From Paramacrobiotus metropolitanus (lineage: Eukaryota > Tardigrada > Eutardigrada > Parachela > Macrobiotidae): DNA of 64,000 nt. Shown here piece after piece: positions 1-61,386 of the stretch (the first letter of the stretch is position 1; each line of letters begins with the position of its first letter). The translations under genes were made by a program, and so were the position numbers. The notes under the pieces are model-generated. The model saw only the letters and a program-made list of their open reading frames with translations, was not told where the DNA came from and ran no database searches. Where the stretch lies: the NCBI RefSeq assembly GCF_019649055.1, contig NW_026570285.1, positions 310,001 to 374,000 on the forward strand, written 5' to 3'.

Positions 1-1734
1 AGAATTTAAATTACTGAGAAAAGATGTCTCACCGTGCAACAGGGCTCAATATGGTGCTCGGCTACCTGTCCGGCAAACACAGCTGCCAACCATCGCGACA
101 AATGCTGTTGTTCCTTGTCACTGGCTACCGGCAAACCACTCTCCAGCGCATCCCACATGGCGCAGCCCAGATCGTAGTCGCTGCTCCGCTGCAATCGTTC
201 CCTGGAGATCGTGATTTTAAGATGCGGTAGAGAGCCGCCGCGGGCTAGAGCAAGCCGCGTTGACAGATAGACAGCGGTCAGTTTCAGGTTGAATTTACAA
301 CCGATGAGTTGGAGAGAGTGACACGGGAGCTCCCGGCATGTCGCCGTGAAATCACGGAGGCTGACATGTCCAGCTTCCCGTGCCCCTTTTTTCCACGCTT
401 TATAAGCCGGATGCTGTTCACCGGTGTACTGGTTACCGCAGTCGGTTCTGACGCCCAGGAGGGACCCTTTAAGACCCAATAGAAAGATGGTGCTCAAGTG
501 TATCTTTTCCCGCTGTTGCGCAATATAGTGGATCATCTGGAACACCTTCAAGAAATCATCTCCCTCCAGCAGCAACTCGCGACAGTCGACGACGATATAT
601 CTTGTCGACACGCGCAGACACTTGAAGACTGGTGCCGTCAAAATGTAGTCGCTATACAGTTCATCCGTATCATCATCTTGCCCTCCTATGATAATGCAAG
701 TGGTCAGCTCCGTAATAATATAGTTCCATGCTGCGCAGACTTTGCGTAGTAAAATCTGCGTCACTGTACTCAGATGCGAGAAGATCTCCAGCAACACGTT
801 TGTTGTCAAAGCGCTAATGTCACCGTCATCCATTGTTTTATTGCCGGTTTCATCCGTAACGCTCTCCTTCATATCATGGTCTTCTGCGCTGAATGTGTAA
901 TCAGTTCCTTCATAATCTGTCTGGAAAGCAAAACCGGCAACATATTAGGGCACAACTGACGGTATAAAGTGTCCTGCAGTCCCAGACACTTACCCAGCAT
1001 TCGTCAAAACATGGCGCATCCGCATCTAGCTCATATTCGGAAGACCGCTTCTCTAAATAGAACAGTTGCCCATCTTTCGCTTCGATGACTAGGATGGGCC
1101 GGGAATCGTTATCCCAAAGGTATCTGAGTTCATTTAGTTTCCGCACTAGTTTTTGGGCGGCTGCTGGCGAAATAGAAGCCAAACGCGTGCAACGGCGCGC
1201 TGCCCTTTACAAAAGTCCATTTGCTCACGGGAACCCTGTTCTTCGCTCCAGCAGCTCCAACCTGCGACAAATCCGAGGACCAGACGCTCCGGCGAATTCG
1301 CTCAACAGGAACAATATCCGTGCAAGCTTCTTTATTGCACCAGCGAACCACGGCGACATCGTACGCCACGTGCTGCACACCGTGTGCCAGGTTAAACACT
1401 TCAGCCGGATACCAAATCCAGGGATCGGCGGGACTGTGGCGCATGCGAACATCCACCCGGGTCGTTATCTCCGCTGCTGCAAAAATCTGCGCCAGATCTT
1501 TTCCCGTCAAAGGCGGAGAAGCGGACCGGAACACGCTATCGAAAGGGACAAGTTCGCGGCGACGGCCTTCGCAGTACAAGTCGATAAAAGTCCATTGTCA
1601 GCCACATCGACCACGCTTCCGTAGCGGTACAAACCGTCGACGCCCAAAACATCAACACTGTTCATTGGCATTTCTGAAACGGAGAGGTACCGCTCCATGG
1701 TGACACAATTGTCAGACTGTTGTAGGTATGACAA
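1..1734 (-). pseudogene. FMRP-like/F-box family gene, copy A (frameshifted, runs off left edge)
   Basis: Fourth member of the tandem family, read right to left. Exon 1 runs from an ATG at 1734 or 1698 to a donor after 994; exon 2 is 920..33 with donor GTGAGA at 32; exon 3 must lie outside the window. Exon 2 is open and encodes the F-box (around ALTTNVLLEIFSHLS) and the family body. Exon 1 has two breaks relative to copies B-D: a 1-nt deletion near 1585, after VDVADNGL, and a 2-nt deletion near 1187, after KGSAPL. Between them the homologous protein continues in another frame; after the second break the original frame returns, so the net loss is 3 nt. Translation from the ATG would stop at about 1507. 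It is either a young pseudogene or, less likely, contains two assembly indels. Confidence 0.7.
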
Positions 1735-3178
1735 CTAACAAGGGAACAAAAGGTTGTGAAAATTTTGCAACTCCACATTCAGTTCTTAATTTCGCAACGA
1801 TTTGTCGGTAGCTAAATACGGTAATTTACAGAGCAAAATTAACAACCGAACCGCTTCACACTCCATAGCCAAAATCAGAAAATCTGATCATCACTCAGCA
1901 GCACCAAAAACTGAGAATCAGCGTGCATCCAGACTGTACATGCGGAAAAGCAAGCGAGCACGCAAAAACGATCCATCATCCATTCTCAGCTGTTTTGAAT
2001 TTCGAACTCCAGCTCGGTAGCCATGGCGATAAGTATTCCATAGTTGCAGTAAGTAAGTAATACCGGTAAAGACTCCAGTTATTACGGAAACGCATGCCGT
2101 GCCCAAAATTCAAATTACCGGTATTACTTGCCTTACTGGCGTACCGTCATTTCGGCATATGAACATTTCGACATACGGTCATTTCGGGCCGGCAGCAACC
2201 CTCTTAATCGCGAAATAAGTCGTAAATGTAAAAAGATTTGGCAAAGAACCGGCGAGGCACGAGCAGAGAAATATTCACACTCGTAAACGTCCTCGCCATA
2301 TACAGATAGGTGATACAATGTTATTCCTGTAAAATGTATGAAATGGATACCTACGAATTTCATATAACAAAGTAGTCGCTGCTACATGAGCAAAGGTCAA
2401 GAGGTTTATACGTATGTAAAGGTAAACAATGGCCTGTACCAACGTGATAGAGTTGCGTCTTAGGGCGTTATCGAGAATTTTGGCTCCAGGTGTAATTCGA
2501 TGTCAACCTTGGAAGAATCTCGGTTTGTACTTTTACAGTTTAAGAGCATTGCGGTTTTGCAGTCACAACGCAATTCATCTGTCGAAGTCTCGATAAAAGA
2601 AGTTTAACCGGCTGGTTTATTTACGTAATTATATTGCTTATGCGTAACTGAATTTTTCCTAGTTTTTATTGCAAAACCTGCTTCGAGAACACCGACCGAC
2701 AACCAGGAATCGTTCGTACTGCTTTTAACCCAAGAGCGCGGAGATATGACACGAAAATACATAACATATGTTTAACAAATGCAAAAAAAATATAACTAAG
2801 CTAACCGACGCAAAATTGCCTAGGAAACGACCGAGCAATATAACAGAAAAACGATCCAGCATACAGCATACAACAAATCCATCTTTACAAACATACATAA
2901 TTATGTACAAAGCAAACGATGAACGCTATTCGTACAATACCAACGTAGTTTACAGCAGCGATCATGCCCCGTCTGAATTGAGTGCAACTTCAAGTCAAAC
3001 ATCAAGCAACGATTCGGTGGATTTTTACCTGTACTTAACTTCTAGCAAAACGAGCAGCACAGAGAAACGTTGTCGCAGAACAGTGAACTGCTTCTGATAA
3101 CGCTCGAGAAAATTATAACTTCCGTTAATTCAGTACGGTTAAATGTATCTTTCTGCATTTCGCTTAAACGCTGCTAAT
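1735..3178. other. Intergenic, no gene recognised
   Basis: Spacer between copies A and B. A 109-codon plus-strand ORF at 2768-3097 is lysine/serine/threonine-rich and matches nothing I recognise; I do not call it a gene. No transposon ends were seen. Confidence 0.5.
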
Positions 3179-5116
3179 TCACACTCTTGGCGAGTAGAAC
3201 TGCACCATCTTAATTAAAGAAATCAGTGCAATGCGAGACAACTTTTCCCACCGCAAAACAGCCAGGCCGTCAGCGCACCACTTCTTCCCCCACCAGTGTG
3301 ATCGCGGACGCGAATCCATTGACTGCGTTCCGCACAGAACCTGAAGCAATAAAAACTGTTCAAAAACCTTCGAAATAGTGATGAAAATTGACAAAAACTC
3401 ACCGAGCAGCAGTATCTGATGTAGGCCTTGTCGATCTGACCGGCATGGACGGCTGCCAACCACCGCGACAGATGCTGCAACTCTTTGTCCCGGGCCGCCG
3501 GCAAACCACCGTCCAACGCATCCCACACCGCGCAACCCAAATCGTAGTCGCTGCTCCGCTGAAAGCGGGCCCTGGAGATTTTAATGTTAAGATACGGCAG
3601 AGTAGGGCCACGGCCGGTAGCAAGCCCCGTCGGCACAATGACGTCGGCTAACAGTTCCAGGCGGAATTTACAGGTACGGAACAGGAGAGCGTTGCATGGA
3701 AGATCTCGACACGCCCCCATGAAATCACGGAGACTGACCAGTCCGGCTACACGACACCCTGCTTTCCATAGTCTAAAAGCCGGGTGCTGTTTACCGGAGT
3801 ACTTCTTGCTGCAGTCAGTACTGGCGCCAAGGAGGGTCCCGCGAAGCCCCAGTAGAAAGACTGCGTTCAGGTGAATTTTGTCCCGGTGTTTCGCAACGTG
3901 GTTTATCATTTCGAACACTTTCAGAAAGTCATCTCCTTCCAGCCGCCATCGGCGACAATCCACCATGATGTACTTCGTCGATGCGCGCAGACACTTGAAG
4001 ATTGGTGTCAGCAAGAGATGGTCGCTTCGCTCATCATTCCACTGTAACCACAGTTTATCATCTTCATGTAGTCGCACGACAACGCAAGTGGTAAGGTCCA
4101 GAATATAGTTCCACGCGCTGCAGACTTTACGTAGCGAAGTTTGTATCATTGTACTGCGATGGGAGAAGATCTCCAGCAACACGTTTGTCGTCAAGATAGT
4201 GATATCACTCTCATCCGTTGTTCCCGGCCCATCCATAGCGCTCCACTCCATACGTCCGTGCTGCGGTAATTTTGGACGCCAACCCATGTCCATTCGGTTG
4301 AAACTTGCCTGGAAAGAAAAATGAGACACATATTGAAGCATAACCGGCAAACGGAAGAACCCGTGCCTCATTCCAGTAATATACCCAGCATTCGTCAAAA
4401 CAGACATCCACGTCCACCGTGTGTTCCGATGGGCGTTGCTCCAGGTAGACCAGGTGTCCGTCTTGCACATCGACGACAAGCTGTGGTTGGTAATCTTTGT
4501 TCCAAAAATATTTGCGAGACCGACAATTGAGTTCCTTCACCAGTTGTTCGGCAGCGGCGGGTGTTAACGAGGCAAACCGCTGCGGTAGCTGCACGCGGCC
4601 CTTTTTAAACGTCCACTTGTTCACGGGAACCCTAATGCCCGTCATAGTCACGTCGTCCTGGGATGAATCGGAAGACGGTACGCGCCGTCGAAGCCACTGC
4701 ACAGGAACAACATCCGTGCATTCTACGGTGTTCCACCAACGCACCACTGCCACATCGTACGTCACGTGTTGCACACCGCGTGTTAGATTGACCAGTTCAG
4801 CCGGAAACCAAACCCATGGATCGGCGGGACTCTGGCGCCAGCGGACATCCATCCGCGGGCCCGGCGGTGCAGCTGCATAGATTTTGGCCAGGTCTTTTCC
4901 GGACAGAGGGCGAGAGGTAGCAAGAAAAACGTTGTTAAAATGAACAAGTTCACGGCGACGATCTGCACAGTGGAAGTCAATTACAAGCCCATTGTCAGCC
5001 ACATCCACCACGTGCCCATAGCGCAACACACCGTCTTCTCCCAAAACATCAACGCTGTTTATTGGCAGCTCTGGAACGGATTGTTTGGGCCACATGTCGA
5101 TGTAGATTAAAGGCAC
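3179..5116 (-). CDS. FMRP-N-terminus-like/F-box protein, copy B
   Basis: Three exons on the minus strand: 5116..4385, 4308..3403, 3340..3179; both introns are phase 0 with GT/AG ends (76 and 62 bp) and the product is 599 residues. Residues about 20-65 (from NSVDVLGEDGVLRYG) and 90-145 (around DPWVWFPAEL to VVPVQWLRR) align with the two Agenet/Tudor modules of FMRP; residues about 165-225 (from KWTFKKGRVQLP, with the AAAEQLVKEL helix) resemble FMRP KH0. Exon 2 opens with a linker, then an F-box (ILTTNVLLEIFSH...VCSAWNYI), then a body without a recognised fold. Exon 3 is a conserved basic/Trp-rich tail (HWWGKKWCADGLAVLRWEKL). Inference: an SCF substrate adaptor whose substrate-recognition part derives from an FMRP-type module. 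Tandem with copies A, C and D on the same strand. Confidence 0.85.
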
Positions 5117-6115
5117 CTGAAATAAGTGACCTGAAATACCTAAGTGAACATTGTGAACATCATTAGTGCGTGTACCTTTATACGGTTAAAAATACTGTGT
5201 ACTGCATCATGGCACAAACACAGAACTGCTTTGTTCTGATGATGACAAATCGAATTATTAACTGGATTAATTTTTTTTATTCAAAAGCATCATTCCAGGA
5301 AACCTCAACGCTGCAAACAACAATGCTGTCTAAATTTGATCTTAATTACAATTTACAACAACGATCGGTAGCGGTTAGCGGGTTCATTCTCTTTATTTCC
5401 ATAACGCGATTAGCGGGTTAGGGTTCATAAAGCAACAGTGAACAGCAATTAAGATTGTTGATTCAGATTTCATCGTTTTTATCATCAAAGTTTGGCAGCA
5501 CGGACACTTACTCGGCCTAGAAATGTGGTTTGAGCTCCAGAATTATAGGAATCGGGATACTCCGACTCGTATGATCGAGTTATGCAGCTACTGTATCAGC
5601 AGTCCTCAGCGTACCAAACGAATTCAAAAGCCATGGCCATGGTGTGCAAGAAATGTGAACAGCGTCGCCCAGCGTGTATGCAATGTCATGTACAGTATGT
5701 AGGTTTACGTTACGGCAACACGCTGTTTGCAAAAACGTTTTTAAATGAAACAAGCAAAAAATGACGCGAAATCAGTACACGCTGTACCGTAATCTGTGTT
5801 TGCCGAAGATTCCATTCATGGGAATGCAGAGATACACCGTGATCAGGCGTGATGCTGCCATTTCGAATTTTGCCACCCGGTAACAAAGGCGAGTATTCCA
5901 TAGTTACCGGTTCGAACTTTGAATACTACGACGCCGGATGTGACCGCGCTAATTATTATTAACTTGATTTAACCGCCGAACCGAAACTGCTCGGCGCTAC
6001 CTCGCACGAATATGTCATCACCTAGCCACAATTACGATGGAAGAACCCCGATGTAGCGCAACTAGCTGACAATATGTACCGTAAAGTTACACCAGTGTTA
6101 TACCACCGACCAACA
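5117..6115. other. Intergenic, nothing recognised
   Basis: Upstream of copy B. No coding potential or element ends identified before the target duplication at 6116. Confidence 0.5.
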
Positions 6116-6124
6116 GCGTAATCT
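6116..6124 (+). repeat. Target site duplication, left copy
   Basis: GCGTAATCT, identical to 7885-7893, directly abutting the left end of the 6125-7884 element. Confidence 0.85.
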
Positions 6125-7884
6125 GGCAGGGAGTAAAAGGTGGCAGTGGCACCTGCCACTGGCAGTTGCCACCGGCAGTGGCATGTGGCATTTCGCGACT
6201 GGCAAGCGTAAAACATGGCAATGTTTCAAAGTGCAGAAATAACTAAAAATTTGCCTGCCACCAAGAAAAGTGAAAGATAAAACGGAATCGATGCGTTGTT
6301 TTTTATTTTCTATGCGTTGTTTTTTATTTCATGAAACGCCATTACACCAAAGATATATGTATGTGAAAGAAACAGTTTATCACATTTCTGTTAAATCATC
6401 TTTTTCTACTTTGCGGCCAGCCAATGCTCTATACCCGCCTACCAAAGCAATAAGCGCTAAATATTTATGTAGCAAAAGTTTCTTAAAATTTTAAAATTTC
6501 TTAGGTTTCTTGCGTTATTCTTAGGTCTTTCAGTTTTCTTAGGTTATTCTTAAGTACGATCACCTAAGAAAAACCTAAGAATCCTTAGGATTCCTAGGTT
6601 TTTTAGGTTATTCTTAAGTTTCTTAAGCTATTCTTAGGTTTCTTTGGGATTTCAGGTTTCTTAGGTTACTTACGTTATTGTTGGGTAATTTTTCTGATTG
6701 TCAGGATATTTTTTGAAATCCTGAGAAAACTTAAATAACGTAAGTGACCTTAGTCACGTTGTTATAACCAAAGAATTACAATACAACCGAAGAACCTAAG
6801 AAATTTGTTGTAAACCTTAGAAACCTAAGACTGACCTAACAACTTAAGGTTAACCTAACAACCTAAGAAATTTAAGAACATACGAAACACAGTGTAAACC
6901 TAAGAAAGTTTTTAGTGGTTTGAGTGTTGCGGTCAGAGCCAAACTTTGAAGGCCAGAGGTTGAGTTGTCAGAATCATGCCTTGTGCATGACGTAGCTTTG
7001 TGCCCGTATTAGCCTACAGCAGTTCTGTGACGTGTTGCTTCTCTAGCGTGCGTATTACTGGTGTTTAACGAGTTGTGGTGACTTGACTAGCCTTAGCATA
7101 TTTGATGTTCTCAACGGATAAGGATATGTGAGAGTGCCCGTTTACGGGCTTGGCTACTCGAAATTAAATCAATCAATCAATCAGACTTTGGACAGTCAGA
7201 GTCAGAGTTTGAGCGGTCAGAGTCAGAGCTTCAGCGCGGGCCGTTTGTTTCTGTTTCGCCTCCCGACTTTTAGTACAACGACATATCAATGAATAACCCA
7301 ACCCACAGACCGACAGAATACTGATCGTCAATTCGCGTTTCCACAATTTTGTTGCCCGATGTGTTCGAAAAACTGTTTTGTCGAACTACAGTTTGCTTTT
7401 CCGTCTGAGAAAACCAAATAAAAATTAAGAAACCAAGAAGCAGACCGTTTGAAGTTAAAAAGTACAGAAGACCGACCGACCGTGTTACAGAGAAGGGAAA
7501 ATCAAAAATAAGAAAACATAAAACCTAATAAAACATAAAAAAAAACAAAAACACCTCACAAAACATAAGAAAACATAAAAAATTTAAGAACAAAAATTTT
7601 AAGACATGTGTGTGCTACCCGCAAATTTATTTTGCGGCATTGTAGCGCTCATTGCGTTGGTAGGCGCGATACAGATAGTAAGCTGGCCGCTGAGTATAGA
7701 AAGATCAATTATATAGAAATTAATATTGTTTTATAAATTTTTTTTTATAACAGGCAAATTTTTAGTTATTTCTGCACTTTGAAAAATTGCCAGGTTTTAC
7801 CGCTTGCCAGTCGCAAAATGGCACATGCCATTGCCGGTGGCAACTGCCAGTGGCAGGTGCCACTGCCACCTTTTACACCCTGCC
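6125..7884. mobile_element. 1.76 kb TIR transposon, non-autonomous (Mutator-like by TSD and TIR length)
   Basis: The ends begin GGCAGGGAGTAAAAGG and close with the near-inverse (CCTTTTACACCCTGCC). The terminal inverted repeats are about 130 bp and diverge slightly; they are made of repeated GGCAGTGGCA/TGCCACTG words that can fold on themselves. The element is flanked by a perfect 9-bp direct repeat, GCGTAATCT, at 6116-6124 and 7885-7893. The interior (6480-6905) is rich in CCTAAGAAA-type words in both orientations, and at 7167-7183 there is an (AATC)n run that looks like the 3' tail of a nested retroposon. No transposase was found. A second copy of the family is at 58448-60167. Long TIRs with a 9-bp duplication fit Mutator-like elements; the superfamily is an inference. 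Confidence 0.8.
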
Positions 7885-7893
7885 GCGTAATCT
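7885..7893 (+). repeat. Target site duplication, right copy
   Basis: GCGTAATCT, identical to 6116-6124, directly abutting the right end of the element. Confidence 0.85.
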
Positions 7894-8302
7894 CCAAGAT
7901 TCTTCCAGCAGCGCAGTTGGATAGTAGTATGTAGCCGTGTATATTATATATGTTGTACTAAATGATATAAGTATTGGTTCATCTTCTGTGTACAGCGGAA
8001 GCCGCAGCATCGGCTGACGAGTTTACAATGTTACTTCTGCTTAAACTTCTAACTGAAAATCAAACCTCGACGAAGAATGCTCGAAGAAACCCACAAATAA
8101 ATCCAGTGTTACAAAAAAAATTAACAGGATGCAGACAGAAAGCGTACCGCATAAATTTAACAGTAAGACATTATTAGAGCGAAGCTATTCGGATTTGCAA
8201 CTCTTTGTACTTGGTGATTTAGTCGGGGTTGCATTTGTGACGATTGCAGGTATCTCCAGTCCAAATACATCATTTTCCGTTCGATGAAATTGAATATTTC
8301 AC

Positions 8303-10218
8303 TCATACCACGGGCGAGAAACAGCCCGCCAGCTTCACCAAGGAAAGCAACGCAATGCGCGATAAGTTTCCCAACCGTAGATCAGCCAGACCGTCAGCGC
8401 ACCACTTCTTCTCATACCAGCGTGATCCTGGTCGTGGGTCACCTGATTGCGTTGCACACAGAACCTGCAACGACAAATAAAGATACAGTAACGTTTTGCG
8501 CTAATGAATGAAAAAGCGCTCACCGAGTAGAACCATTGGATATAATGTTCGGGTACCTGCCCGGCGTGGATCGCTGCACATCGCTGAGACAGACGCTGCA
8601 ATTGATCCTCAGTGGCCACTGGCAAACCAGCCTCCAGCGCATCCCAAATGCAGCATCCCAAATCGTAGTCTCTTCGCCGCTGCATTCGCGCCCTGGAGAT
8701 TTTACTTTCGATAGACGGCACAGAGAAACTGCGGTCTATGGAAAACCACATCGCCGTATAGACCCTTGATAATTGCAGACGGAATTCACAATCGAGGAAG
8801 AGGAGGGCGTTGCATGGAAGATCCCGACAGGCCACCGTGAAATCATGGAGACAGACATGGCCAGCTGCCTGTGCATTTTCCTTCCCCGCATGGAACGATG
8901 ATGGCTCAACCTCCTGCCGTTGACCAGTGTGATGGGTGTCGCAGGCCGTACTGACGCCAAGCATGCTGCCTTTGAGACCCACCAGAACGATTGTATTCAG
9001 AAAAATGCTTCCATGGTGCTGCGCAACGTAGTGTATCATCTCGAACACCTTGAGGAAAACGTCTCCGCCCATCTCCCATTTGCGGCAGTCCACGACGATG
9101 AACTTGGTTGACGCGCGCAGACACTTAAAGATTGGCGCCGTCAGAAAGTAGTCGTGGTGAACAGAGCTGTGCGCTTGGTCAAATTTGTGTGGTCGCATAG
9201 AAATGCAAGTGATCAAATCCATGATATAGTCCCATGCTGTACAGACCCTGCGTAGTGAATTTTGTACTATAGCAGTCAGATGTGAGAAGATCTCCAGCAA
9301 CACGTTTGTCGTCAAAGCACCAATATCCCCCTCATCCGTTGTCCAAGTGCCCGGTCCATCCGTCACGCTTTCCTCCATATCTTTGTCGTCCGCATCGAAG
9401 GTGCAATCCGTTCCAAAATGTGTCTACAAAGCAAAACCGACAACATATTAGGCAACAATTACCTGCTACAAGTGACAGTCCTAGGCATATACCCAACAAT
9501 CGTCAAAACACGGTCCCTCCGCAGCCCGCTCCTTTTCGGAAGACCGCTGCTCTAAATAGAACAGCTGTCCATCTTTCACTTCGACGACAAGCACGGACCG
9601 GAATTGGTCGGCCCAAAGATGTTTCAGACAATTCAGTTCTTTGACCAGGTTTTCGGCCGCTGCTGGCGCAAGAGAGATATAACGCGGCGGTAATGGCGCG
9701 CTGCCCTTGACAAAGGTCCGTGGGCTCACGGGAACTCGTTTCGTTGCATTCGAAAATCCACCCGTCGACGAATCAGAAGATATGACGCTCCGGCGAATTC
9801 GCTCAACCGGGACAATATCCGTGCATGCGACGGTGTTCCACCAACGAACCACTGCAGCATCGTACGTCACGTGCTGCACACCGCGTGTAAGATTGACCAA
9901 TTCAGCCGGAAACCAAATCCAGGGATCGGCGAGGCTGTGGCGCCAGCGGACATCTACAGAGAGGACTGTCTCTGGCGCTGCATATATTTTGGCCAGTTCG
10001 TTGCCATTTAAAGGGCGATAAGTGGTCAGGAAAACCTTGTCAAAAGGGACAAGCTCACGGCGACGACCTGCACAACAGAAATCGACGAACAGTCCATTGT
10101 CAGCCACATCCACCACGCGTCCATAGCGGAACAGACCGTCTTCGCCCAGAACATCGACACTGTGCACTGGCATTTTCGGAGCGGGTTTGAATCGCCTTGG
10201 CAGGTTGGTTACCGGCAT
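8303..10218 (-). CDS. FMRP-N-terminus-like/F-box protein, copy C
   Basis: Three exons, all phase 0: 10218..9493, 9423..8524, 8464..8303; 595 residues. The order is as in copy B: Agenet-like 1 (PVHSVDVLGEDGLFRYG...VPFDKVF), Agenet-like 2 (SVDVRWRHSLADPWIWFP...IVPVERIRR), KH0-like stretch from about residue 165 (RTFVKGSAPLPPRY), a cysteine/tryptophan motif CFDDCW at the end of exon 1, F-box in exon 2 (ALTTNVLLEIFSHLT...VCTAWDYI), family body, and the tail exon starting VLCATQ. Start chosen at 10218; an internal Met at about residue 16 is next to the conserved block and is an alternative. No disruption seen. Function is inferred only from architecture: SKP1 binding through the F-box, partner choice through the N-terminal module. 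Confidence 0.85.
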
Positions 10219-11715
10219 TGTGGTACTTAACTTGTTTATGATTATGTCGTGAATTTGACCATCATAAATGCACGCAAACGGTAAATATTTACCAACTACT
10301 CAGTTACTACTGCATGGTAGTTGTTTAGCGAAGACACCAAATAATGCTTAATCCAACTTCGAATTTTTCAATTCAATTAGTTAAAATAAAAAGCACAAAA
10401 AATGCAACATCGACGGAAAACTACAAGTTGCGACCAACGTAAACTATAATATACTCGTACGCTGGCGCTTTTATACTCAAATTTTTTACAGTAAAAAAAC
10501 TTACTTTACCGTGTAATGTGGTTCTGACTTTTGAGTGATAGAAATCGCAAATTTGAAGGAATTGTAGGATCGAGTAATGTAGCTTCCGCAAAATAGCAAA
10601 TGAATCAAATATCCCAGGTTCGTGCCTAGCTACAACGTGCGCATAATTTACACGGTGCGTTATTTAGCACGGCGTTCTTGACCTCGTCAATGCAGATTTC
10701 TCTGAGTGCAGCAATTCGCCGAACTGGGTAACTATGGCAGCATAGCATATAGTGCTCCTTAGTTACCGATTTACTTTTTTAGTATCACGATGCCGCAGCT
10801 GGCGGCTCGAATCATAGAATCATAGTGCTCGTGTTAACATCGTTCAATCAATCCAGTCGTAACACACTGCAATGCAAGCCTGCCCAAAATATTACCGCTG
10901 CTTTACCCGGGCCACTGGGTATAACCTTCACAAATTCTGCAAGCAGTGCAGCTGGGTTGGTTGACCCGGAAAAAGCAAGGGAGAGCACATGGTGCACAAC
11001 GAAAAGACAAACGAATAGCTTCTAGGTATAAAGGTTGGCGGTGAAATTACCTGTAGCGCAAAGCTGTCACAACGTGAGACATAAGCAGGATCGTTAGATA
11101 AAAGAGCTTTTATCGTTAGATAAAAGAGCTCATTGAGCTTTTACTACATGCAGGGATATTCAGTATTCTTCCGTGAACATATGGTCACAGCTCGGATCAT
11201 ACAGAAAGTGGCGCGATTAAGTACCTTCGCTTTTGCTCTTCGTCTGCATCCACAATTATGTAAAACAGTTTCCTTACATAGGAAAGCCTTAAAGTAAAGT
11301 GCGCAATCACAAATATAACTCCTCCTTCGTGTACCGTACTGTAGGTGAAGGTAGTCGGTATTCGCGTTAGCATTTTTGCGAAACTTGTTTTACGAGCAAA
11401 GCGAGAGCGGCCAGCTGCCGATTTTCGTTCTGCCGTTGTTTTTACTCGTATACGTACAACGTGAAGGGGATACAAACAACGAAAACCAAAACAAAGTACA
11501 ACAGGTCGAAACAAACTGAAGCAGCATTCTCCACGCGAAACCGAGCTTCGTAAACCATATATTCCCCGTAAAAGCAATTGCTTTATAAGCGGAACAACAA
11601 CGACTTTGCACAAATTATGACAACGCTCATGCAACGCAAGACCACAAAAGTGCAACATAAAGTAATCTCAAATGGGTTTATTCTTCTGCTTAATGCTAGC
11701 GTGTTTCAGTTCCCC
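10219..11715. other. Intergenic between copies C and D
   Basis: No convincing gene. A short imperfect tandem duplication of a 23-bp word (ATCGTTAGATAAAAGAGCT) lies at about 11090-11135. A 153-codon minus ORF at 11197-11658 lacks any domain or compositional support and is not called. Confidence 0.45.
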
Positions 11716-13876
11716 TCATACAGGGCGCAAGGCCATGGCAAGTTCCACAACCTTGATCAAGGAGAGCAGTGCCATTCGGGACAAGTTCTCCCACCGCAGT
11801 TCAGCCAAACCGTCGCGGCACCATCTTTTTCCACGCCAGTGTGCTCCCGCTCGCGGATCGACGGTCTGCGTCGAGCATAAAACCTGTAACGATACACAAT
11901 GAGTAAACAGCTGTTCCATTGAGTACTTACTTACGGTTACCACGTATACAGAACTGAGACAACAACGTTGTAGTCTTACCGAGCAGCAGGGCGTTAGAAG
12001 GTACCGGTCGATTTGGCCCGCAGCAGCGGATGTCAGCCACTGGGATAATCCCTGCAACTGGTCGTTACTGGGTGCCGGCAAAACCGCCTCCAACGCACCC
12101 CACAGCGCACAGTCCAAATCGAAATCCCCTCGTCGCTGCAGCCGCGCCCTGTGGACATCCATAAACAAAGGATGACCATTACGATATGAGACGGAAAAGC
12201 CCAGATGGAAGCTACAGCCGATCAACTGGACGGCATCGCACGGAAGATCACGACACGCCACGGTGAAATCACGCAGGCTGACGTGTGCCGCTTGCAGTGA
12301 CCTTTCTCGCGGTGCCAGGAACTGTTTCGTGTTGTGAACATTACAGTAAAAACTGCTGCCTACAAGCCGTCCTTGAATACCGATCAGAAAAATGGTGTCC
12401 AGCCGAATCCGTTCATGTTGTGCGGCGCAGAGTATCATGTCCAACACTTTCAGGAATTCGCCTCCCTGTTGCATTGGTCGCCGACAGTCCGCGACAAGAC
12501 GCTTTGTGGTCGCGCGCAGGCATTTGAAGATTGGCGCCGTCAGCAAGTAGTCGCTGCGGTCAGATTCGTATAGCTTATCGTATCCATGAATTTTTACGAT
12601 AACATTGGCGTATATTCCTGGCAAATCCATGATGTAGTTCCACGATGCACACACATTACGTAAAGAAGTCTGCTTCAAAGTGCTCAGGCAGGAAAAGATC
12701 TCCATTAGTACGTTTTCCGACAACGCACTAATACCACTGTTATCAGTTGTGTCGGGATCAGCAAGGATCCGCACCAGACGGGGAGGTCCCTTAGATTCGT
12801 GGACAACATGATCCAGAGTTGTCTGGAAAACAGTCCGACAACGTCAGAACATTCATTTTATCGAAATCAAAAAAGTAGTCAATCGAGTAAACAAAATTCC
12901 GCAGTACGGCACTACTTAATAGTCAACAAATTAAAGCGCTGAAAAAACACGCAAAATCTCAGTCTTCGCGCGAATGAAGAAACGGTAAGGTGAATTTGTA
13001 CTCAACACCGGCAGACTGGCGGCAGTAGTGGTGTAATCTTTTATAACCGCCAAATTAAAATGCTGAACGAGAAAAGCAGACAAACGTGTCAGCTAGTTTC
13101 CTAACTTTTTGGACCAGTTAGACTGCAGATTCCCTAAATATCTGTAATGGTGTGCTGCAAATTAATTTTACCCAAAATTTGTCAAAACATGTTGTCTGTA
13201 CATCCGGTTGATACTTCGAGAACCGCTGCTCGATGTAAAACAGCTGTTCCTTTTCCCCGTGAACGATCATCACTGGTCGCTGACTGTAGCTGTCAAACAG
13301 AGATTTACGACTGTTCAGCTCGTTCACCAGTTGCTCGAGAGCCGGCATCGTTAACGAGGCATAACGCAGCGGTAACTGCACACTGCCCTTCGCAAAGGTC
13401 CATTTGCCCACGGGGACCACATTCCGCAACACAGCCGCTTCAGCATTCGACGCATCAGAAGTCAACGCGCTCCGACGAATTCGCTGCGCTGGAACAACAT
13501 CCGTGCAAGCTACGGTGTTCCACCAGTGAACTATTGCCACATCGTATGACCCGTGCTGCACGCCGCGCCCCAGATTGGCTAATTCAGCGGGGAACCATGT
13601 CAGTGGTCCGGTGGGACTCTCGCGCATAAGGACGTCCACATGGCTGGTTAACTGCGGGGCGGGGTAGATTTGGGCCAGCTCTTTTCCATTCAGAGTAAAG
13701 GAGGAGATCGGGAAAACATTGTCAAAAGGGACGAGTTCGCGTTGACGACTGGCACAGTGGAAGTCGACGAATAATCCAGTGTCGTCCACATCCACCACGC
13801 TCCCACAGCGAAACAGTCCGTTTTCACCCAAAACCTCCACGCTGTTCGTGGGGGTATCCCCGATGGAAATGGTCAT
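11716..13876 (-). CDS. FMRP-N-terminus-like/F-box protein, copy D
   Basis: Three phase-0 exons: 13876..13172, 12822..11980, 11883..11716; 571 residues. Exon 1 carries the two Agenet-like modules (NSVEVLGENGLFRCG; VDVLMRESPTGPLTWFP...VVPAQRIRR), the KH0-like stretch and the terminal CFDKFW motif. Exon 2 carries a short divergent linker and the F-box (ALSENVLMEIFSCLS...VCASWNYI). Exon 3 is the conserved tail (VLCSTQTVDPRAGAHW). Intron 1 (349 bp) is the longest in the family. Most diverged of the four copies, particularly in the linker and the second Agenet-like module. It lies head to head with the eIF4E-like gene; the start codons are about 715 bp apart. Confidence 0.85.
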
Positions 13877-14408: not shown

Positions 14409-14591
14409 CCTGAGTTTGCTGTCTTCTCTTCTGTAACTCTGTTAGACGTTACAGCGTTTGGCATTTCAGCTTTCTGTTTTACTTTGGAATGCTCATAATC
14501 TTGTGAGAGCCTGCTGGTTTTTCCTGCCTTGAGTGTTATTTTAACTAGCGTTGCTTTACACACTTCCATAAAGTCCACAAAACGTTGTAAA

Positions 14592-15946
14592 ATGGTATCG
14601 AATAAGCGTAGCAAGAACAAGCGTCGAAGGACCAAGAATGGCATGGCTAACAACGCCAGCAACCCACAGAAAGAAGCCAAAATGCCTGATTCTCCACCAG
14701 CAGACAAACCCAGCAACGCCTCATCACTATCAAACGGCCTCGACACAATCCATGAGAAATGTGAACCCACCTTCACGGTTTCCACAGAACCATCGGAGAC
14801 GACGAGCGAATCAGGCTCTACACCGTCACCGTCTCCTCCCGTCAATCCATTCGCTCCCGCATTCCAGGCCACTAATCCTTTCGCTCCTAAATTCCTGGCC
14901 GCCAATCCATTCGCTCCCAAATCATTCGTCCCGGAACGCGAAGTTGCGCAAGTGCAGCCAGCACCAGTCAGGAGTGAACAATCTCAGCCTACGAAGTTGC
15001 AGGACAATCAGGCACAACCACAGAACGGTCCCGCAGAGCAGCTGGTGAATGGGAACACGTCGCCAACCGCTGGCATGGAGTGGCATGGACTGGAGAATGC
15101 TTGGAAGTTTTACCAAATGAACTCGACAACCAAGGGGCTGAGCTATAGTGAAAGGATCCGCGAAGTCGGCGTCGTCGACACTGTGGAGGCTTTCTTCTAC
15201 GCGTTGAAGCGCATTCCACAACCCAGTGAGACCGCGCACTGGCAGGATTATATGTTCTTCCGTGGAGGCAAAGGACCACATCTGCAGACGCCAGTGATTA
15301 AGCCGGAATGGGAGGATGTCAGGAATGCACGCGGTAAGGACAACGTGGCATCCCTGTCACGGTTTTCAACGCTCTTGTGGTGTCAGCATTTATATTTATC
15401 GACTGTACCTTCTTGAGAGCAGTAGTTCAGTCGTACGCGTTGTTTGTTTTAAATTTTAATTCAGTCTGGATAATTTAATCACATCCGTGCATGCTGCGGA
15501 AGGAAAGTTTCCGAGATTGTGTGTATTTGGCTGATTAAGGCAGTTCCTGTTACGGTACTTTCTTAGGTGGGATGTGGAATTTTGTTTTTCCCCAGTCAGC
15601 CCAGTGTTTCATGAAAGCCCGTGATGTGGATGAGAAATGGAAGGAGCTTCTGATGGCCATGATCGGGGAGCAGTTTGGTCCGTACAACGACAACGTAAAC
15701 GGCGCCTACTGCTGCAATCGCAACGGGAACGGCAACGGCGAATACCGCTTGCAAGTGTGGTTGGGCGTCAACGATGCGGAGACCGTGAAGGGTGTAGGCG
15801 CGAAGCTCGTGGAAATTATGGGCTTGACGGAGTCGGATGGCATCTGTTTCCAGTACTGTTCGAACACGGCCGGCAAGAACAAACCGCTCTTTGATCGTCG
15901 GGATATTTATCGTGGACTGCCGCCCAAGAAGATCGTGGCGGCTTGA
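14592..15946 (+). CDS. eIF4E-family cap-binding protein, class III-like, with NPFAP repeats
   Basis: Two exons, 14592-15333 and 15567-15946, joined in phase 1 to give 373 residues. The ATG is in a good context (AAAATGG). The N-terminus begins with a basic run (NKRSKNKRRRTKNG) and contains three copies of a ten-residue NPFAP repeat at about residues 85-112; NPF is the core ligand of EH domains. The eIF4E fold spans about 165-355: the Trp of NAW matches eIF4E W43, a Tyr stands where W56 would be, the dorsal-surface Trp (W73) is Phe in TVEAFF, and the cap-binding W102 is present in PEWEDVRN, followed by RGGMW across the splice junction and KELLMAMIGEQF. Trp/Tyr at the W43/W56 positions and the WKELL...IGEQF match suggest class III (eIF4E3) rather than 4EHP. 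An extra insertion precedes IKPEWED. Family assignment is firm; class is less so. Confidence 0.88.
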
Positions 15947-21744: not shown

Positions 21745-40305
<18,561 letters not shown>

Positions 40306-43095: not shown

Positions 43096-43131
43096 AACTC
43101 GTAAAGGTACAAGTAATACTCCGCTTCCGAT

Positions 43132-44052
43132 TTGTTATCGTCATTGCTTCCTCACCTTCCGGTAGTTACCGCTTCTGTTGCGCTCGAGTTGTGGAAAACC
43201 AAAGCCCGTCAAACGGAATTACCAGAAGTTGGCTTCCGAAAGCTTCAAAAGACCTGGGACTTACCGCTCTGTAATGTGTCTACTTCTGTTTTATTGGACT
43301 TGTTCCGAGGCGACTGCATTAACACAGCCCGCTTTCTTGCACAGTCCCGTCCCGAAGCCGGTATTTGGCTGAATGCACTTCCTTCAGCACACATCGGCAA
43401 TCTCCTCGATGATGAGACGATAAAAATCTCAATCGGTCTGCGTCTTGGGGCGGACATCTGCGAGCCACATAATTGCACCAAATGTCAGAAGCAGGTAGAC
43501 AAGCTGGGACATCACGGCTTATCGTGCAGCTACTCGGCCGGTAGGCATGCGCGTCACGGAGGTTTAAATAGTATTGTATGTCGGGCTTGTGTTTCTGCCG
43601 GCGTCCCCGCTAAGCTGGAACCGCGCGGTACGTCCTCTACTTCAAATCGACGACCTGACGGATGCACGACATTCGCCTGGAAGAGAGGAATGTGCCTTGC
43701 CTGGGATGTGACGTGTGTTGACACAATGGCCCTCTCCCATATCCCGTCCACGTCGGTTACGGCAGGTGCTGCCGCAGCACAAGCGGAAGTGAGAAAGTCC
43801 CATTTGTACTCGTATCTGGAAGGGCGTTACATCTTTTCCCCGATCGCATTTGAGACGATGGGCCCTTGGGGTCCGGCGGCTATGGCTGTTGTAAAGGAAT
43901 TGGGCAAAAGACTGCAGCAGCACACAGGAGAGCGGCGTTCACATGAATTCCTGCGCCAACGACTATCGCTGGAGATTCAGCGCGGAAATGCTGCATCTAT
44001 CCTTGGGACGATGGATGGAGTGGATAGTTTGAATGAAGTTTTGCTGTTATAA
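43132..44052 (+). mobile_element. 3' end of a non-LTR retrotransposon ORF with CCHC knuckle and RLE-like domain
   Basis: Open frame of about 306 residues without an N-terminal reverse transcriptase, so 5'-truncated. It contains a C-x2-C-x8-H-x4-C knuckle (CTKCQKQVDKLGHHGLSC) followed by RPDG and WDVTC, consistent with the PD-(D/E)xK restriction-like endonuclease found downstream of the RT in R2-type elements, and a conserved tail (RQRLSLEIQRGNAASILG). The assignment rests on motif order and my memory of similar invertebrate retroelement tails. The frame is unbroken, indicating a fairly recent insertion or selection. Confidence 0.65.
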
Positions 44053-45011
44053 ATTGCATCGAGTGTTCCCTTTTCTTACCCGAAATGTGTGTTGGTTATT
44101 AATAAAAAGCAATTGGAATGAGTAATAGTTTAGGAAATAAGAAATACAAGTAATAAAAATCAGGAAAACCACAATGCATAGAAATACTACGGTAAGTGTC
44201 AAATATTTGACGTTATTTGATTCCTTACATTATACAGACACATACACAGTCCATGGCCTCTGGAAAGACGGTCGACAATCGTTTGAACGATCGATATTGG
44301 TTCATGGCAGTGATGCATTTTCCCTATACTTCTCGGGCGGCGGGCCTAATGTACGAGACATATTAATAATGTGTATGGCAGTGTGCGTCAGGCCGGTCAA
44401 CGGAATGAGCTGCAACAGAAAAGGCAGCCGTTGCAGCTCAAAAGGGAAAGCGTGGAATATAAAATGCGAAAGAAATGCAAACGGTTAACGCTCTTGTGTG
44501 GTTGTATCTACTGGCCTTGCGCCATTGCAGTAAATTAACACTCCCGACGGCTTACGGTAGAACCGTGAAACCAAGAACGAAAATAATTTTAAATTGGTTG
44601 TGGGATGCTTTATGTGTCACGAGAAGACTAGCTAGATGCAAATTTCTGTAGGTGCATTAGAATTGCGACTGCGTAATCGTTGTTTCCAGTGGGCGCTCTG
44701 GAGGTGATATTCCACGTACCGTAGCTTATCGCTTCTTCAGCTGCTCACCAAAGTTGCAAATGAAGCAGGGGTACAATATACAAGACTTGCAGAATTGCGG
44801 GAGCAGCAGGACACAGAGATCCCAGGGGCACTCATGGGGTTGCTGTTAGCTAATTATAGCGCTCCACAACTCTTACGTCTGAGGACCGTTGTTTGCTGTG
44901 ACTATGGGCTCACTCATGGATAACTGGATTGACTGATTGCCTTATAGTGTTATTTTGACGATTTTGTGTAAACTTCACGTAGAAATCTTTCATGAAAGTA
45001 TGTTATTTAAG
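44053..45011. other. Spacer upstream of Gr-like gene E
   Basis: The distal part follows the retroelement; the proximal part (from ~44640) belongs to the segmental duplication. A 104-codon ORF at 44174-44488 has no recognisable similarity. Confidence 0.4.
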
Positions 45012-47110
45012 ATGGACAAGCCAACCGTTCCGGTCGATGTTCTGTCGTATGTGTGCGGTTTTCAGAATCACTGGCTAAATTTCTTCGGCTTGCCATCATT
45101 CAGTGGAAAACCCAGATCTTGTCATCGTTGGCTGATTTGCTTAATCGTAGCGTTATACTCCACGTTCATCCTGATTCTTGATCTTGCCGGAATTTGTCGC
45201 ATGGGTTTCGATGCCAGAATCTTGACCGGCCGTGACACCTCCCTCGTGGAGATCGTCGCTCGCTTGCCGGATTCGGCTAGCGTCCTTCGTGCCTTGATTC
45301 CTTTTGTCATATGTATGACCCAGAGTCCGGCATTCAGCCGTTTACAGGAAGCGCTAAATCACCTTACTTATTTATCCAACAGTGACCAGAATCTCTTGGC
45401 GCAGACGTGTCGGAAGTGGCGGCGGTACGGTTTCATCTGGGGCGCAGCGTCGGTTGTGATGGCCGTTACCACGGACTACATTAACTGGCAGTTTTGGTAC
45501 AATATGCGCGACAGCATGCTGTCAGGGCTTACCAGTACATGGATGTTTACGCCGGTGGAAATGCCGGTTGCTGGATTGATTGCCTTCTATTCACTCGGCT
45601 TAACGCCATCTTCATTGTCTCCCAACAGATTCTGATAACTTGTATCATGATATCTATCATTCAGAAAGAAGCCTACAAAACTTTTATTGAACGCATTCGG
45701 AGCGCAGCTACGGGGTTTAACAGGAGACAGTGCCTCAGTTTCTTACGGCAAATTCACCAATTCCATGCGGCGGCATACACTGTCAGCGAATATGTTAATA
45801 GTGTATACGGATGGGGCGTTCTGGTCATGTACGGTCTCGATGTGATGACGGCGTGTGGATGCGTGGCGGGAGTGATATCGCTGATAATGAGCTCCCCGAT
45901 CGACATGATTAACGTTAGCGCGTGGTTGAATTTCGGGATGTGGTTCTGCTTCTACGTGTCGTACTGCACGGTGTTCTTAATTCCCATTTTCAAAGCCGGG
46001 GAACAGGTACAGTACCATTCACAGTACACAGCAAAAGTGGTGTAGATAATTACTTACTGCAAGCTGTTCTTTTTTATGTTCGCAGTGGGATGAAATTCAA
46101 GTTGCACTTTATAAATTCCTAGAAACAGCCAATACAATGTCACTTGAGATTGACCTATCGCCGAGTATCACCAATATCCAAGAGCGAATTGAGGCATTGC
46201 TTTTTATTCGACGTAACCGAACCGTGGTAATCCACGCTGGAGGGTTCTTTTTTGTGACACGCTCGCTTCTGGCGCGGGTGAGTCTAAACTGTAGCAAACC
46301 GCACAAAGAAAGCTTAGTTCGAAAATATACTTCGACTAACTAGAATGATTATTATGTATAATCTTGTAGGCGGTTACGTTAATAGTCTCCGCATCTCTGG
46401 TCTGCTACGGTCTGCTACAAATCGACCATGGAACCAACGAATATTTTGTAGGCCAAAGGATGGTTAATACTTCATACGATAGTTGGATGGTTTAGTTTGC
46501 CTACTTCAATAACCGTACCACTATGAAATGTTGTAACGAAAGATGAGTTAAATCAGTAGCACTCGGAAATCGCTAGGGTACTCGATTAGTAACTACAATA
46601 AGTCCTCAATTAGCGAATGCAGAAATCTTTTCTCACTGTCGGAAACAAAATTTCAGCCTGAAGGTATCAAAATAGGCCGGCATTTTCTCTTAATATTCGA
46701 CAAGTCGCAATGTCAAATAAATGTTTAAATGGTATATTCAGAAAAACGTTTCTAGGCTTATTGATTTACCTGCTTACAAATAAAAGAAAAGGGTACAGGC
46801 CAGAAATACATATCTTCGAAAGTGTGCAAAAAATGGTTAACAGGACATTTACGAATTCCCGTCCGGCGCAACTCTTTTGAGCCCATTGCATTTACTTGAA
46901 TGACAGCGTTAGATAGAATTACGCAGACCCATAAGCCTGATCGCCACAGAAAGTCGAGTGATCACGAAAGCGATTCAGCCAAAATTAGGCATTATCAGTG
47001 GTTCTTTATCCCTGGAAATGACAGGCGTTGTGGATTTTGTCCGAATTTTTCATCCGGCAGAGGGTATGGTATCTTCGGTTGCGCGTATTAGATACCAAGG
47101 AGTAACCGAA
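44640..47110 (+). repeat. Segmental duplication, copy 1 (with Gr-like gene E)
   Basis: Homologous along its length to about 61010-64000: the upstream block (GCAGAATTGCGGGAGCAGCAGGA), the whole receptor gene and the downstream block (TATCTTCGAAAGTGTGCAAAAA). Divergence is moderate with scattered indels. A third partial copy of the upstream block is at 51745-51960. Confidence 0.75.
45012..46495 (+). pseudogene. Gr-type (7tm_7) chemoreceptor-like gene E, one frameshift
   Basis: Three exons: 45012-46006, 46086-46277, 46370-46495. The protein is multi-pass, with the Gr signature region FLRQIHQFHAAAYTVSEYVN followed by YGWGVLVMYGLDV, and the C-terminal exon features GGFFFVTRSLLAR then a last membrane segment (AVTLIVSASLVCYGLLQ) typical of 7tm_7. 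Exon phases are all zero once a single missing C near 45609 (CCATC where copy F has CCCATC) is allowed for; exon 1 is 995 nt, one short of a whole frame. As written, translation stops at about 45635. No other break was seen, so a sequencing error is a live alternative. Gustatory receptors of this family are ligand-gated channels in insects; ligand here unknown. Confidence 0.75.
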
Positions 47111-47302
47111 AACGACGTGTTAAGATCTTTAATGGTCGTCCAACTGGTATTGCACGTAGAAGAAAACTGCCGCTGAGCTGTGGATCGAGATCCAGCCGCT
47201 CTTAACAAACATATTTAGTATTTACTCAGATTATGTCGAAAAGCAATAGTTACTCGCTCGAAAAGCAATAGCAGTCACCGCGGTTGCAAGTTAACAGCGA
47301 AA
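46496..47302. other. Downstream flank of gene E
   Basis: The first ~600 bp are part of the segmental duplication. No gene recognised. Confidence 0.4.
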
Positions 47303-48462
47303 ATGAATTTCGACTTTAACAGCGAAAATGTGTCAAAGAAATGCAACCGGAAAGTTAGCTATATTAATCATGTTTTTCGATACAGTGACTACGGTGCTCG
47401 AATACGACTTTTCGATTCTTTAGTCCTTTCAGTTATTGATTATTGCTGTTCCACCACGCATCCATTGCTAAAGAAATCGGCAAAAATCGTTGAACGTTGT
47501 CAGAGAAGGTTCACTAAAACCTTGCGCCTCGGCAGTAACGTGTTGAATTACGCAGAGCGTTTGAAAGAGCTCGAATGGGATGACCTAGCCACACGACGCT
47601 TAAAAAAAACGCTAATGTTCATGTACAAATTGGTTTTTCGGGTGGTTCCAATGGGTGACCTGATTGTATTGCCGCTAAAGTTTTCTGCTGCGGTGCTTGA
47701 GTCTGTTGCAGGTAACACCAGGATATCAGAACGTCTGATGAAGCATCCATGTCCAATCAAGCCGGCTCCGACAACAATTTGTGGTAGAACGGTGACCACC
47801 TCCCATGACTCGTATCTGAACCGCCTTGTGTCCGTCTGGAACGATCTTCCTTTCCAACCCGTTGCCTACGTTACTTTGAACGCGTTCACTGAAGCTCTGA
47901 AGAGAGTGAGCTTGAAGGATCTACCATCGGTTAAAGCTTTCAAAAAAAGTGCAGTGTAATTACCGTTGTTATTTTAATGTTCTCTTTATTGTTTTGTCTT
48001 GTTATACATGTGTTATGCCTACCATAGTAATTTCGGTTGCGAGTTAGTTGCAGAAGTTACCAAAAAGGCGATTACGTGCGTAAGTGTCGGTGCTTTCCTT
48101 TTTCCCACAGTTTTGTTTTGGAAATTTTTTTGAAAATGGTAATTTTACTAATATGTGTGGGTTTGGTTTTATGCATCGACCCCAGCGCGATCGCCTGCCC
48201 GCCCTTTTTCCACAATAAACGCAACTTATCGCAACCGTACCGACAACATGCAGTTTTAAGTACTTTTCATGTGCTGATGTTTGTTTTTGCATGTGTTGAT
48301 GTTTTTTCTGGTTTATACTTGTTTCCGCTGGCTTTCATGTTTTCGTGGTATCGCATTTTGATGTTATTTTAACATTCTGGTTTGTTCTCCGCTGTCTGAA
48401 GCTTAGAGGGCAGTCGCTTCGTTGCAAGGACAATAAACTTCATTACATTACATTACATTAAG
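47303..48462 (+). mobile_element. 5'-truncated LINE (CR1/Jockey-like) with (ATTAC)n tail
   Basis: ORF 47303-47959 encodes the region after the reverse transcriptase palm: DSLVLSVIDYCCSTTHPLL, VERCQRRFTKTLR, LKELEWDDLATRRLKKTL and SYLNRLVSVWNDLPFQ, a set seen at the C-terminus of CR1/L2/Jockey-type polymerases. About 480 bp of 3' UTR follow, ending in CATTACATTACATTACATTA at 48441-48460, the expected microsatellite tail. The 5' boundary is uncertain. Confidence 0.8.
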
Positions 48463-60167: not shown

Positions 60168-61386
60168 TGTTAAGTTGCGCTAATAAGAGTAAAAGAAGAC
60201 TGATTTTGTCTGTCCATGGTTTTGTGAATTTCTCCATTCTCCATGCTTGTATACCTTATAGAATTATTGATTTACACTTGACGTACAGGCAATATTCCCC
60301 GGAAGAACAGTATTACTGCACTGTAAACACCAGCTCTCATCTTGGTCAAGTTAAATACAGTACAATGCCACCTAGTTCATGTATTCATGTCATTTCCGTT
60401 GAACAATGCCACCTAGTTCATGTATTCATGTCATGAAGTTTCCGTTGAACTCGAAGTATCACGCGTTCAACGGAAACTTCATGACTGAGCTGAGCGTATG
60501 TACGATCTCGATATCCTCGCAAGCTGCCGAGTATGTCGGTACGATGCGCTATTTTACTACATCCCGTTCCGGTGAAATTACGTCACTACTCGTACGCTAT
60601 TGTTTTGACTCCTGGGTCTTCTTATACTGCTAGTGTTAATGTACGGTAAAATGGACCATTAAAAATACGATAACGAACCAGGCGGAGGTGTCTATGAAGG
60701 GTGTTCAAAGAGTCTATTGCAGTCCTATAGATTGTAGCAGCACAGGAATTAGTACTGAAAAGCCTGTAGAGGACGGATGATTTGGCAGAATGCGGAAGAA
60801 ATGAAAACGGTCAACGCTAGCCTTAATTGTGCGGTTCTATCTACTTGTCCCGGGGGGCTTAACCCGGTGAAACAAAAAAAGCAGATGAGAAATCTCAAAA
60901 GAACGTCAAGCAAATCGGCTAGTACGAACTTTTATGCGTCATGGGAAAATAACTAGAAAGATATACTATACAACAAGCGCCAGAAGGGGTTAGCGTAATT
61001 TTTATTGATAATGGGCACTGGAAGTCATATTCTATGAGGTACGTATCGCGGTATCGTAGCTTATCGCTCTATAAACAACTCACTAAAGCTGCGCTGGTAC
61101 GAGTACAACACAAGCAATGGTACAATGTGCAGAACTTGCAGAACTGCGGAAGCAGCAGGACGCAGAGATCCCACGGGCGCTTTTGTGCCGCTAATAGCTA
61201 ATTTTTACCGATACACAACAAGCGCGTCTACTGCACGGTCGCTTGCAGTAAAGTGAATATGGACGTACTCGTTGATAACTGATTCCGAATTCTCATGTAC
61301 CGTATACTGACGATTTTATATAAACAACTTATCTGAATTCTGTAGTAACCTCTACGTATATAGAAATTTGTGTAATTATATTAAAG
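60168..61386. other. Upstream region of Gr-like gene F
   Basis: Contains the hairpin repeat at 60363-60483; from about 61010 onward it is homologous to the region upstream of gene E. No further gene seen. Confidence 0.4.
60363..60483. repeat. 41-bp tandem duplication and 19-bp perfect hairpin
   Basis: CAATGCCACCTAGTTCATG and following bases repeat at 60363 and 60404 (period 41). The second copy runs into a hairpin with arms 60432-60450 and 60465-60483 (CATGAAGTTTCCGTTGAAC) and a 14-nt loop. Confidence 0.7.

Follow-up and report, generated by a model that had tools for sequence, protein, structure and literature searches.

A stretch of 64,000 nucleotides from the tardigrade Paramacrobiotus metropolitanus (contig NW_026570285.1, positions 310,001 to 374,000, hereafter the window) opens with four collinear gene copies, A to D, which all lie on the minus strand within positions 1-13876 and in which an FMRP-like N-terminal half is followed by an F-box. 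This raises the questions of whether the two halves belong to one protein, where the N-terminal half came from and what such a protein may do. As judged from uninterrupted reading frames elsewhere in the genome, the combination of FMRP-type tandem Tudor modules with an F-box is a real single-polypeptide architecture and, by the number of places found, the FMRP-like F-box genes are a genome-wide superfamily, not a four-gene cluster. A first-pass annotation, made from the letters of the window, had suggested the fusion and stated that this architecture is not known from any described protein. Our literature search gave no description of it by title or abstract start, most subscription papers and bioRxiv lying outside the coverage, and the statement held that far. 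The terms F-box, FMR and Tudor were absent from the main text of a paper on tardigrade genomes (PMC5531438), and the term F-box from PMC11191345.

Organization of the four gene copies

The copies share one layout: a pair of Tudor/Agenet modules of FMRP type is encoded together with a KH0-like stretch in exon 1, the F-box is encoded in exon 2, and exon 3 is short. Copies B, C and D are complete, with 235-242 codons in exon 1, 281-302 in exon 2 and 53-55 in exon 3. In copy C, exon 1 (9493-10218, 242 amino acids) has an intact frame that was aligned to FMRP through Tudor1, Tudor2 and the KH0-like stretch, exon 2 (8524-9423, 300 amino acids) contains the F-box and a variable region, and exon 3 (8303-8464) encodes a KKWCADGL tail and the stop codon. 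Copy B, assigned by its frame and its alignment to C, has the same parts at 4385-5095 (exon 1, 237 amino acids), 3403-4308 (exon 2, 302 amino acids) and 3179-3340 (exon 3, tail and stop), and copy D at 13172-13876 (235 amino acids), 11980-12822 (281 amino acids, F-box) and 11716-11883 (tail and stop). In copy A, exon 2 with its F-box (33-920, 296 amino acids) is complete and exon 3 lies beyond the window edge; exon 1 (994-1698) has two frame breaks, near 1590 and 1180, reflecting a pseudogene or a sequencing error, so that it is read in three frames and matched by the Tudor profile in three pieces. The exon 1 frame is intact in B, C and D and the exon 2 frame in all four, and the four collinear copies of the first-pass annotation were thus confirmed. 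Exon 1 is 63% (B) and 53% (D) identical to that of C, exon 2 53% (B), 47% (D) and 54% (A).

All four copies have intron 1 directly behind the same Trp codon; it is 69 nucleotides long in C, 76 in B, within 69-76 in A, and 349 in D. All seven introns (intron 1 of A-D, intron 2 of B-D) were assigned by eye as GT-AG introns of phase 0. The exon 3 tail of 53-55 amino acids carries the motif K(K/R)WC.DGL, related forms of which are found in B, C and D; its earlier description as Trp/Cys-rich was overstated. A TGG/GT donor conserved family-wide was considered and rejected, as it was found in only 5 of 47 loci, where codon shuffling would give 1.3, and four of the five belong to the window clade.

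Tudor modules and F-box in one polypeptide

The F-box passed the curated cut-off of PF00646 (20.5 bits) in copies A (26.5 bits) and D (23.4 bits). In B and C it stayed below the cut-offs of both PF00646 (E 0.016 and 0.0025) and PF12937 (E 0.0043 and 0.003), so that the F-box proposed for all copies is established by Pfam for two of them.

The fusion itself is borne out by three loci elsewhere in the genome (L057, L058 and L059), chosen since the match lists showed one long frame beneath both Tudor and F-box matches. They are single uninterrupted frames of 650, 559 and 567 amino acids, each of which contains all parts, from the Tudors and the KH0-like stretch to the F-box exon and the KKW tail, and passes at least one of the two F-box Pfam cut-offs. 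In three further loci (L011, L023 and L029) parts of both exons lie in one frame. One could argue for two adjacent genes, one with the Tudor exon and one with the F-box exon, that are duplicated jointly, as 41 of the 47 distinct places holding both parts show no common frame. This is contradicted by the three full and three partial fusions, by the phase-0 GT-AG junctions, which lie at an identical codon in the window copies, and by exon 2 of copy D, in which no ATG precedes the F-box. We consider two separate genes extremely improbable.

The two exons are also linked by position. The F-box exon was found 3' on the same strand in 51 of the 57 locus-strand entries with a Tudor part, and in 47 of the 52 distinct fetched places that remained after four repeated places and L060, which belongs to another Tudor group, were dropped. 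The five places without an F-box exon were L039, L050, L052, L053 (minus strand) and L054; of these, L054 alone runs into the end of its fetched stretch, and in the other four no F-box exon was present within about 1.9-2.7 kb. Among the matches listed genome-wide, 74 of 143 F-box places had a Tudor place at most 3 kb 5' on the same strand, compared to 13 with a Tudor place on the 3' side and 8 with one on the opposite strand.

Two results speak against a fusion throughout the family: the F-box matches of B and C below cut-off, and this genome-wide count, in which only about every second F-box place on the list has a Tudor partner among the listed ones and pairing is not full. Nine further F-box places, taken from the F-box match list and with no Tudor place near them in the two type-1 Tudor lists, were examined, and seven of them have a Tudor exon upstream on the same strand. 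For the two misses, on contigs C54 and C73, merely 0.7 and 1.6 kb of upstream sequence were at hand. The miss on C54 (L062) is an F-box protein with a weak leucine-rich-repeat match (E 0.064).

Relationship of the N-terminal half to FMRP

The profiles used for comparison were built from family sequences without FMRP. On the type-1 side 44 family sequences were included, on the FMRP side the FMRP of P. metropolitanus itself (own FMRP) together with human FMRP and FXR1; FMRP was the sole tandem-Tudor family compared by profile. With hhalign, the type-1 profile scored 72.9 against FMRP (probability 97), compared to at most 23.3 for 100 column-shuffled profiles and to 14.4 with the reversed profile; against the human proteins only, the score was 49.2. 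The FMRP-free family profile matched the genome's own FMRP with an E value of 7.8e-4 at a million sequences. A divergent subfamily, type 2, gave 51.5 against FMRP (shuffle maximum 18.7, 100 shuffles) and 176.7 against type 1; its profile comprised six of the seven exon 1 sequences found (C31 was left out), which had been located with the type-1 profile and are not a blind choice. The collinear alignment to FMRP spans Tudor1, Tudor2 and the start of KH0, in agreement with the tandem Agenet/Tudor modules of FMRP type proposed in the first-pass annotation. With the type-1, the type-2 and the combined profile, own FMRP scored above human FMRP and FXR1, a preference that would be expected from capture within the lineage, although composition may account for part of it.

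Own FMRP (C5:3433812, L013) encodes its Tudors, KH0, KH1 and KH2 within a single open frame that runs over 630 codons (610 inside L013), a layout that resembles the family's single exon for the Tudors and the KH0-like stretch. In the family, the KH0 region gave a local profile score of 18.3, compared to a maximum of 14.4 in 200 shuffles, over the first ~27 columns only; beyond this start, KH0 was not significant by profile, local or forced alignment. The best part of the AlphaFold model of exon 1, a poor model overall, is a beta-alpha-beta-beta segment, which we take to be the element order of KH0 lacking the last helix. A KH0 fold is thus only suggested, and the earlier resemblance is supported in part, for the beginning of the domain. 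No KH_1 match was found in the scanned exons or single-frame members, with own FMRP as control (1.5e-20, two stretches). The C-terminal core of FMRP (PF12235) was not matched in the family proteins scanned; this control was weak, since own FMRP, cut by the locus end, reached 20.7 bits and not the cut-off of 29.6. No RGG run was seen by eye in the fetched family frames.

Several results weigh against a descent from FMRP. PF18336 (Tudor_FRX1) remained below cut-off in the window copies (D, E 0.001 with 19.4 bits and a cut-off of 25.9; B, E 0.096; C, E 0.15). PF17904 (FMRP KH0) was unmatched in the family proteins scanned, whereas the control, own FMRP, was matched. Over the whole genome the Agenet profile PF05641 had no match at E<=0.001 and, therefore, does not discriminate. 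The AlphaFold models, both made from window sequences only, were poor (pLDDT, the model's own confidence measure, 41.7 for exon 1 from three sequences and 30.5 for exon 2, the latter model being useless), and Tudor barrels were not directly visible. A phmmer search with exon 1 of copy C against PDB sequences gave no match. Of the checks named with the first-pass annotation, the Pfam profiles for the N-terminal half and the model did not bring the expected result; the family profile matched FMRP, and a Foldseek search with the poor exon 1 model placed FMRP N-terminal structures at ranks 1-6 of 350,542 chains, albeit weakly (E 0.015-0.064).

Alternatively, the N-terminal half could be a tandem Tudor/Agenet pair of generic type whose likeness to FMRP arose by convergence, or it could descend from a different Royal-family protein. 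The missed PF18336 cut-off, a KH0 that is undetectable past its start and a weak general Agenet match in one type-2 member (E 0.068) are in line with this. However, two divergent subfamilies are each collinear with FMRP through both Tudors into the start of KH0, the Foldseek ranking is headed by FMRP, and own FMRP is preferred over human FMRP and FXR1 with three profiles, the third of which combines the first two. We regard a generic origin as unlikely and favour homology to FMRP. A viral origin was rejected, as no relative was found in viral contigs with the query used.

Extent of the family in the genome

The genome searched comprises 169.8 Mb in 533 contigs and contains a match to a tardigrade-specific CAHS protein (E 3e-69, 65% identity), which marks it as that of a eutardigrade. 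Exon 1 of copy C gave at least 153 matches (best 150 of 909 candidates scored) and a second type-1 query at least 170 (best 150 of 911); of the 150 places listed for this second query, 64 had no overlap with the copy C places. A type-2 query gave at least 153 matches (best 150 of 995), and none of its 150 listed places overlapped the earlier ones. The union of the three queries, with one partial row of the copy C query left out and pieces at most 700 bases apart merged, amounts to at least 358 distinct Tudor-exon places on 77 contigs, the F-box partner being checked in the fetched loci; more places probably exist. With the F-box model by itself there were 1080 candidates, of which the best 150 were scored.

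Near-identical family members were found on contigs C195 and C35, one pair being identical in exon 1 with different open-frame lengths; haplotigs, or else a segmental duplication of recent date, are the probable cause, and some of the places counted above are probably haplotig pairs. Contigs C106 and C209 (L014, L015, L016) and position C54:123977 have short exons of Tudor1 type that exceed or come close to the PF18336 cut-off. No F-box exon was present in L014-L016 within the stretch fetched, and a second Tudor group without F-box may exist.

Conservation and selection

Mean pairwise identity over 29 loci was 0.59 in Tudor1, 0.16 in the linker, 0.38 in Tudor2, 0.30 in the KH0-like stretch and 0.47 in the F-box, and 0.26, 0.21, 0.27 and 0.35 in successive parts of exon 2 after the F-box. 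Tudor1 is thus the most conserved part, followed by the F-box, and the inter-Tudor linker and the region after the F-box are the most variable ones. The ratio of non-synonymous to synonymous substitution rates (dN/dS) in the Tudor part was 0.08-0.40 in all eight close paralogue pairs (>62% identity, drawn from the 45 loci whose Tudor part is complete); the pair with the lowest value, L005/L006, is probably allelic. In the three pairs for which both exons were available, dN/dS was higher in the F-box exon than in the Tudor part (0.33 vs 0.22, 0.44 vs 0.28 and 0.41 vs 0.20). By these ratios, the close pairs are under purifying selection with both exons constrained, and the F-box exon, mostly past the F-box, evolves faster than the Tudor part. 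The faster F-box exon next to constrained Tudors suggests that the Tudor ligand is common to the members and that the C-terminal arm diversifies.

The values also bear on the possibility that the copies are mostly decaying duplicates with little function, spread by mobile DNA or tandem duplication. Decay is visible in the two frame breaks of copy A and in stops within some genomic matches, but most listed matches have no internal stop and dN/dS is well below 1 in 8 of 8 close pairs, one of them being the probably allelic one. The window copies are not simple retrocopies, because they have kept their introns. A family consisting mostly of decaying copies is very unlikely.

Putative methyl-pocket positions

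According to He and Ge (PMC5430443), F32 and Y96 of FMRP are putative methyl-pocket residues required for the binding of FUS and LSM14A, E7 and E66 are cited as salt-bridge residues, and a histone role is questioned. Residue frequencies in the family were taken from 44 sequences (41 effective) in the register of the alignment to FMRP. The F32 position is occupied by F in 67% and L in 26%, the Y96 position by W in 73%, the E7 position by D in 78% and the E66 position by E in 68% or D in 15%. The first-pass idea that partners of FMRP-family proteins, methylated chromatin proteins or ribonucleoproteins (RNPs) are targeted may hold, because the pocket positions are mostly aromatic, and a methyl- or RG-type ligand of the family Tudors is possible. 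Two observations count against such a ligand. The position of W80, presumably a cage residue in FMRP, is F in only 51% of the family sequences (L in 29%). Own FMRP has Y at the F32 position and I at the Y96 position, and inheritance of the methyl pocket from it is weakened because of this isoleucine.

Proposed function

From their domain content, the proteins probably act as substrate receptors of SKP1-CUL1-F-box (SCF) ligases, with an FMRP-derived tandem-Agenet front end, an F-box and a variable target arm; an SCF role as such is likely. The N-terminal half probably derives from FMR1 of the tardigrade itself, including KH0 at least in its first part, and would have been fused to an F-box that is followed by a variable region. 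In this scheme SKP1-CUL1 would be contacted by the F-box, and all members would share, through the conserved Tudor pair, a single ligand class, namely methylated or RG-rich proteins of RNPs or chromatin, as for FMRP. The choice of the individual target, which would then be degraded, would fall to the variable region behind the F-box. Gene birth and death would have carried the family to hundreds of loci, most likely driven by an arms race against foreign or selfish proteins of the kind that has been proposed for the F-box families of nematodes and plants.

One point weighs against this proposal: SKP1 is not expanded, with four SKP1-type places on contigs C6, C3, C12 and C26. Four SKP1 places for hundreds of adaptors would suit F-boxes used without degradation, or copies that are mainly decoys or dominant-negatives (SKP1 titration or RNP scaffolds). 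The F-box is, however, the second best conserved part after Tudor1 (0.47 vs 0.59), as expected for SKP1 contact, and we judge such a use distinctly unlikely compared to that as SCF receptors. Going further, the Tudor module may be the shared reader of several hundred to about a thousand SCF receptors in an invertebrate degradation-based innate defence that polices RNPs or chromatin, each member sitting on methylated RG-rich or histone-like partners and destroying a different foreign or selfish protein via its variable arm; we put this forward tentatively, as a possibility with a minor chance of being correct.

Neighbouring loci

The F-box cluster adjoins a gene that, as judged from its frames, resembles that of an eIF4E-type cap-binding protein (window 14499-15946, plus strand). 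By eye, the plus strand also contains unconventional myosin-like exons with IQ, MyTH4/FERM-like and SH3-like parts (25691-35456), multi-pass membrane open reading frames resembling gustatory-type receptors, apparently duplicated (44937-46045 and 61324-62112), and fragments resembling the ends of reverse-transcriptase-type retroelement proteins (43117-44052 and 47219-47959). Elsewhere, a repetitive locus of about 1.2 kb on contig C150 (L075), open in all three frames of one strand, lies upstream of a Tudor F-box gene.

Discussion

Chromatin-reader modules are combined with ubiquitin-ligase parts in KDM2A/KDM2B (FBXL11/10) and UHRF1, as in the tardigrade family, but these have other domains (JmjC/PHD; RING) and few copies. 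The FMRP/FXR family (FMR1, FXR1, FXR2) agrees with it in the order and spacing of the two Tudor/Agenet modules and in the start of a KH0-like stretch behind them; the tardigrade proteins have an F-box instead of KH1, KH2 and the C-terminal core, for which no match was found in the proteins scanned. A functional link between an F-box ligase and an FMRP-family protein is given by SCF-Fbxo4 and FXR1 (PMC5688124); there, FXR1 is a substrate in trans, whereas the FMRP-like module of the tardigrade family lies within the F-box protein itself.

The nearest precedent (PMC12062965) is found in Caenorhabditis, where the F-box families A1 and A2 have an F-box-FTH arrangement and A2 carries an N-terminal Tc1 transposase helix-turn-helix (HTH). 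Like the tardigrade genes, A1/A2 form a lineage-specific family of several hundred F-box genes with an N-terminal module gained by fusion and under purifying selection. The tardigrade module is an FMRP-type tandem Tudor and not a transposase HTH, and the phylum is a different one; HTH, FTH and FBA2 gave no Pfam match in the family proteins scanned. The KSS/KSL F-box antidotes of nematodes are, in the available part of PMC12680543, likewise clustered, fast-changing F-box proteins and adaptable SCF receptors; no Tudor module is named for them there, and SKP1 is expanded in these nematodes (20 and 23 skr genes) but not in the tardigrade.

If the proposed role is right, the protein-binding front end of FMRP, the methyl-reader role of which is debated, has served hundreds of times over as an adaptor for ligases. 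The family would then give a natural series of variants for probing the binding of this module. Tardigrades would also rank beside nematodes and plants among the lineages whose F-box repertoires have exploded, though their N-terminal module is another one, and convergent degradation-based immunity would become testable in a culturable animal.

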